The notes beneath the pieces are model-generated. The model searched no databases. It was given only the letters and a program-made list of their open reading frames with translations, and was not told the origin of the DNA. Below are positions 21,617 to 22,548 of a stretch of DNA of 44,959 nucleotides, one piece after another. Made by a program: the position numbers and the translations under genes. Source of the stretch: Thermodiscus sp. (lineage in GTDB: Archaea > Thermoproteota > Thermoprotei_A > Sulfolobales > Acidilobaceae); assembly GCA_015521175.1 (NCBI GenBank), contig WAOR01000108.1, forward strand, positions 1 through 44,959, read 5' to 3'. Position 1 is the first letter of the stretch. The number at the start of each line of letters is the position of its first letter.

Positions 21617-22309
21617 TTGAAGGAGCCGATAGGCATTGTAGGAGGCCTCAGCCCCTACTCTACCATACTCTACTATAAGTTCATTGTAGAATATTTTCGA
21701 GATAAGGTGGGGAGAGACCCACGTATAATCCTTTACAGTATTCCGGTCCAAGAAATGTGTAAACACGTTGAAAAAGGGGATAAAAAAGAAGCAGTAGGAC
21801 TCCTTGTCGAAGCCTTCCGGGGCCTAGAAGACGCCGGGGCCAAGATAGGCTTGCTGGCCGCTAATACTCCACACATGTTCCTGAAGGAAGCACTAGGGGA
21901 AGCGAAGCCGAGTTATCCTGTCGTGGATATAAGGGAAGCCGTAGCTAGGCGGATCGAGAGGATGAGAGTATCTAAGGTCGGCTTACTGGCGACGAGGGCA
22001 ACAGTGGAATCAAGGATTTATCACGAATACCTAGAACCTTTGGGAGTCGAAGTTGTAACGCCTGGACTTTATGGGCAGAAGATAGTAGACTCTATAGTTG
22101 ATAGGCTCGTTGAGGGGCGAATACCAGAATCGCTTAACCTAAAGCTAGCTCAAGTTATCTCGTCGCTTAAGGCCCGTGGCGTAGAAGCCCTAGTTTATGG
22201 GTGTACAGAGCTGTCCCTGCTCGTTGGAAAGATAAAATTATCAATACTTATTATAGATAGTCTGACTGAGCATGTAAAACTGGTAGTTGACAGGGCTCTC
22301 GAGAAGTGA
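21617..22309 (+). CDS. Aspartate/glutamate racemase family protein
   Basis: IGIVGGLSPYSTILYY, LLAANTPHM, VYGCTELSLLV; TTG start. Confidence 0.85.
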   Translation: MKEPIGIVGGLSPYSTILYYKFIVEYFRDKVGRDPRIILYSIPVQEMCKHVEKGDKKEAVGLLVEAFRGLEDAGAKIGLLAANTPHMFLKEALGEAKPSYPVVDIREAVARRIERMRVSKVGLLATRATVESRIYHEYLEPLGVEVVTPGLYGQKIVDSIVDRLVEGRIPESLNLKLAQVISSLKARGVEALVYGCTELSLLVGKIKLSILIIDSLTEHVKLVVDRALEK

Positions 22310-22350: not shown

Positions 22351-22415
22351 AGGGGATGAAGAGCTCGGCGTAACTGAGAATACTTGGTGAAGAGGGTCTT
22401 GAGTGCGGACCCCCT
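22351..22415 (+). ncRNA. Box C/D guide sRNA (candidate B1)
   Basis: AGGGG-ATGAAGA-11nt-CTGA-9nt-GTGAAGA-12nt-CGGA-CCCCCT. Confidence 0.7.
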
Positions 22416-22474
22416 ACCATTCTAGATACCCAATACTGTGGTCTTTACAATACTCTCGCGGTACTAGGTCTAAT

Positions 22475-22548
22475 GGGGATGAAGAAGTACACGGGCCCGA
22501 GCCCCCGTGTGCTCGAGGGCTGTGAGGAGACCTGTCTCAGCCGACCCG
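22475..22548 (+). ncRNA. Box C/D guide sRNA (candidate B2)
   Basis: GGG-g-ATGAAGA-11nt-CCGA-GCCC..GGGC-t-GTGAGGA-gacctgtctcag-CCGA-CCC. Confidence 0.77.

Follow-up and report, generated by a model that had tools for sequence, protein, structure and literature searches.

A conserved C/D box sRNA predicted to guide methylation of 23S rRNA G2599 in Thermodiscus and its order

A short intergenic segment in the thermophilic archaeon Thermodiscus sp. raises two questions: does it encode a functional guide RNA aimed at the catalytic centre of the ribosome, and are both of its guides in use? The segment, which we call B2, lies in a contig of 44,959 nucleotides (WAOR01000108.1, assembly GCA_015521175.1) that was analyzed whole and is referred to here as the window. 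A first-pass annotation had proposed, from the letters of the DNA, that B2 is a double-guide C/D box sRNA with a particular layout of boxes. Both the class and the layout are borne out by exact reading and by the conservation of orthologues across the family and the order, and we put the probability that B2 is a functional archaeal C/D box methylation-guide sRNA at roughly 0.9.

B2 occupies positions 22475..22547 on the forward (+) strand and reads GGGG-ATGAAGA-AGTACACGGGC-CCGA-(21 nt)-GTGAGGA-GACCTGTCTCAG-CCGA-CCC. A terminal stem of GGGG and CCC (22475-22478 with 22545-22547) closes the C/D motif and, by reading, complementary ends are found in most homologues as well. Enclosed by this stem are box C (ATGAAGA, 22479..22485, the same in genome G043), the D' guide AGTACACGGGC (22486..22496), box D' (CCGA, 22497..22500), a D'-C' spacer (22501..22521), box C' (GTGAGGA, 22522..22528, read also in homologue copies), the D guide GACCTGTCTCAG (22529..22540) and box D (CCGA, 22541..22544), with D' and C' making up an internal C'/D' motif. 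The guides, of 12 nt (D) and 11 nt (D'), are inside the 10-12 nt range of archaeal C/D guides (PMC7994747). Box C is one position off the consensus RUGAUGA, and both D boxes of B2 are the non-consensus CCGA, one position off CUGA; ATGAAGA and CCGA retain the GA/GA core of a kink-turn. At gathering thresholds, Rfam gave no match anywhere in the window. The Rfam C/D families sR42 and sR-tMet do align over the full length of B2 below threshold, but sR42 (RF01127) scores 15.9 bits against a gathering score of 38, and its guides are unlike those of B2 (GCCCCCUCUC against GACCTGTCTC).

The D guide had been proposed to form 11 pairs with an archaeal 23S sequence around A2602, which would place the N+5 target at about G2599. 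In the 23S rRNAs of relatives, we found 11 contiguous Watson-Crick pairs between this guide and GUGAGACAGGUC in helix 93: guide positions 2-12 upstream of box D pair with U2596-C2606, and the N+5 nucleotide, itself paired, is G2599, three nucleotides from A2602. The proposed position held when the numbering was checked on E. coli MG1655 rrlB, where the target stretch is 2595-2606. Further, GUGAGACAGGUC or a close variant was the best-scoring site of the D guide in each of 16 full-length 23S sequences, with 11 contiguous pairs in most of them. The proposed sequence is likewise present in relatives: GTGAGACAGGT[C/T] is carried by G040 and G042 of the same genus and by the rest of the family, and the target stretch occurs in each 23S gene or fragment from the family that covers this region (23 genomes, namely G040, G042 and 21 others). 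A 23S gene was absent from the window's own metagenome-assembled genome (MAG; 83% complete), in which a search for the exact D target matched solely the D guide itself, so that the target is verified in relatives only. Complementarity and conservation make Gm2599 a strong prediction, and B2 very probably directs a methyl group to G2599 of the 23S rRNA. A covariation between guide position 12 and 23S position 2606, picked out by eye, was dropped; the three genomes with U2606, all of one genus, have A at guide position 12, but genomes with C2606 have any base there and we therefore make no covariation claim.

How deeply this guide is conserved was gauged by a blast of the whole locus against 48 family genomes, 21 of which had locus matches; in all 12 other genomes matched over the B2 part, the D guide core lies between C'-like and D-like boxes. 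A homologue model made from 11 sequences then matched 120 of the order's 214 genomes, spread over ten families, while a class-wide search of 15 further genomes gave 0 matches. All 69 homologue copies read from the order share the 10-nt core ACCTGTCTCA exactly, followed by one free base and then by box D (CTGA in 38, the CCGA variant in 27, four others). The invariant stretch is exactly D guide positions 2-11, with positions 1 and 12 variable, which fits the limit of archaeal C/D RNPs to a guide-target duplex of ten base pairs. The search model includes the guide core, which partly builds in the invariance seen outside the family; the first within-family copies were obtained by blast of the entire locus and not by the guide-containing model. 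Compared with the window, G043 has both guides and all boxes identical but matches at 14 of 21 positions in the spacer and 49 of 69 in the interval between B2 and the neighboring sRNA B1, and in G040 the ten-base D guide core is identical.

The D' guide has a different history. Its usual form in the family is CTCCACGGG plus one base, and in most family members this guide forms 8-10 bp with helix 74 of the 23S rRNA (C2064-G2072, within the segment GACCCCGUGGAGC at E. coli 2061-2073), placing N+5 at G2067. Some members have an additional base in front of D' that would move the register, and for these G2067 is not certain. With targets at G2067 and G2599, both ancestral sites are in domain V near the catalytic center, ~530 nt apart, and the ancestral B2 probably held on to the catalytic core at two of its strands. 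In the window and in G043, by comparison, AGTACACGGGC has mismatches at positions 8 and 10 that leave 6 contiguous pairs with this segment. The D' guide of this lineage has probably decayed to an inactive form, judging from its pairing. The window is the only case in which this guide is complementary to the spacer too, and the two are paired in a fold of the naked RNA, although with a weak z-score of -1.4. Elsewhere the D' guide has been replaced in one genus (G044-G046) and is different in families f7 and f3. At loci L299-L313 (family f7 and others), the D guide is kept next to another D' guide, for example AAAGGGGTT in f7. As read from these alignments, the differing D' guides represent modular guide exchange within one sRNA lineage. 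The ancestral G2067 target, the D' decay, the depth of conservation and the stem in the D'-C' spacer all go beyond the first-pass annotation.

Protein steps established for archaeal C/D RNPs (PMC7994747) suggest how B2 would work. L7Ae would bind both kink-turns (C/D and C'/D'), Nop5 and fibrillarin would complete the RNP, and the D guide would capture helix 93 of the 23S rRNA before or during its folding, upon which fibrillarin would methylate the 2'-OH of G2599, whose pairing partner is the fifth nucleotide from box D. The D' guide of most relatives would pair with helix 74 and direct a second methyl group to G2067; where this guide is intact, a single RNP could keep two strands of the peptidyl transferase core together during assembly. 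The box anatomy, the complementarity, the conservation and a fibrillarin gene encoded in the same genome (E 7.5e-105) are observed directly, whereas we infer expression of B2, its assembly into an RNP, methylation and any chaperone effect. A broader proposal, tentative and possible at best, is that B2 installs Gm2599 throughout the order and, in most family lineages, also tethers helix 74 (G2067) to helix 93 as a dedicated chaperone and modifier, with some lineages now dismantling one side.

It could alternatively be argued that B2 is mainly a folding chaperone of rRNA whose guides organize helix 74 and helix 93, with methylation secondary or absent at one site. The pairing of both guides, in most relatives, with such distant strands around the catalytic center would suit this role, and a chaperone function has been proposed for double-guide sRNAs that bridge distant sites (PMC4644070). 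However, the D' guide of the window lineage pairs poorly with its ancestral site and is exchanged in the lineages named above, whereas the D guide core never changes, and we regard a mainly chaperoning B2 as unlikely. A second alternative, to which we give similarly little credence, is that the D' guide of the window has been retargeted to another RNA instead of decaying. The sister genomes G000 and G043 share AGTACACGGGC without change despite differing flanks, suggesting constraint, but these genomes are close (79% over the locus) and 11 identical nucleotides are weak evidence. Further, the guide had no match in the sense tRNAs found in its own genome, whose loci were taken from Rfam matches, and no convincing target in the 16S or 23S rRNAs of relatives; its four other exact genomic matches are not recognizable as RNA genes. 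One 9-nt match in G041 was rejected as it lies upstream of the 16S gene, outside the mature rRNA. Decay of the D' guide thus remains our preferred reading.

Finally, that box-like intergenic motifs merely coincide with an accidental 23S match is extremely improbable: the boxes are non-consensus and ~0.13% of all 11-mers in the window are fully complementary to some stretch of a relative's rRNA, making such a match unlikely by itself yet not decisive, but the guide and boxes are conserved across the family and order amid diverged flanks, and this pattern, as we read it in the alignments, decides the matter by contradicting chance resemblance. Within the window, TGAGACAGGTC occurs once, on the strand opposite the D guide (0 of 100 shuffles). 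Among six pairs of box-C-like and box-D-like motifs on both strands, the B2 guide is the only one with an 11-nt complement in the rRNA of a relative, and the remaining pairs have complements of 8 or less.

The type of RNA described here is well known, and this includes C/D guides aimed at helix 93. A C/D sRNA site at C/U2606 in this helix was predicted in all six thermophiles of a seven-species study (PMC4644070). The C/U2606 guide is of the same RNA class as B2 and has an adjacent target sequence, but the methyl register of B2 falls on G2599, seven nucleotides upstream, so the two are different guides; the partner D' guide of B2 ancestrally aims at helix 74, unlike the C/U2606 guide. The long-range double-guide sRNAs Neq sR15, Neq sR17 and Iho sR114, which have been proposed to be rRNA chaperones (PMC4644070), resemble the ancestral B2 in having two guides to rRNA strands that are distant in sequence and share a structural core. 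However, none of the three joins the G2067 and G2599 regions, and the second guide in the window is degraded. The main texts that we searched make no mention of G2599 in archaea; an earlier prediction of this site, for instance in the site lists of Dennis et al. 2015 or Lui et al. 2018, is possible. What is unusual in B2 is the depth of guide conservation together with the one-sided decay. Archaeal guide sequences have been described as fast-evolving (PMC4644070, PMC7994747), and about three quarters of predicted methylation positions in the seven-species study (407 of 529) were found in a single species (PMC4644070). That a ten-nucleotide core directed to a site only three nucleotides from A2602 stays unchanged through an order suggests an unusually constrained modification. 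G2599 is a precise site at which the predicted methyl group can be tested, and the lineage that has lost the partner guide offers a natural experiment on whether both halves of the RNA are needed.

The D'-C' spacer varies in length from 3 to >20 nt among homologues, and in most of the close ones its ends pair as GCCC/GGGC, as they do in the window. In this modest sample of homologues the stem is paired in 95% of cells, a level reached in 0 of 500 shuffles, and two of its pairs show changes on both sides. The k-turn and k-loop forms of the internal motif are both known in archaea (PMC8413462), and the conserved spacer stem indicates that the motif in B2 is a k-turn with a stem I and not a k-loop.

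B2 lies between an Asp/Glu racemase gene (21617-22309) and an unassigned downstream ORF, and is next to B1, another C/D sRNA (22356-22409, + strand); the same order is seen in G043 and G040. B2 had been placed about 60 nt downstream of B1, and while it is indeed downstream, 69 nt separate box D of B1 from box C of B2. The D guide of B1, GGGTCTTGAGTG, forms 10 bp with the anticodon loop of tRNA-Leu(CAA) with N+5 at C34, a pairing seen in G040, G021 and a contig-end fragment of the window's own genome. By this complementarity, the predicted target of the B1 D guide is C34 of tRNA-Leu(CAA) and not rRNA. Guides to the first anticodon position of this tRNA are known in Pyrococcus (PMC7994747). For the D' guide of B1 we found no target; both B1 guides recur unchanged in G043 and G040. 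Upstream of B2, TCTTTACAATA (22442-22452, + strand) is kept in G043 amid differing nearby bases and is a possible TATA-like promoter, which would give B2 its own transcript.

We also observed inserts in the 23S genes of G016, G040, G033, G020 and G023 (L225, L230, L224, L223 and L234, respectively), at ~50 nt and at ~12 nt upstream of the B2 target. Several family contigs end at these inserts, which are probably rRNA introns and may explain why the 23S gene is missing from many MAGs. On two other contigs of the window's own genome (C116 and C120; L184 and L185), repeated GTTGAAAACAAGCAAGACTAAGAG units resembling CRISPR arrays lie near tRNA genes.
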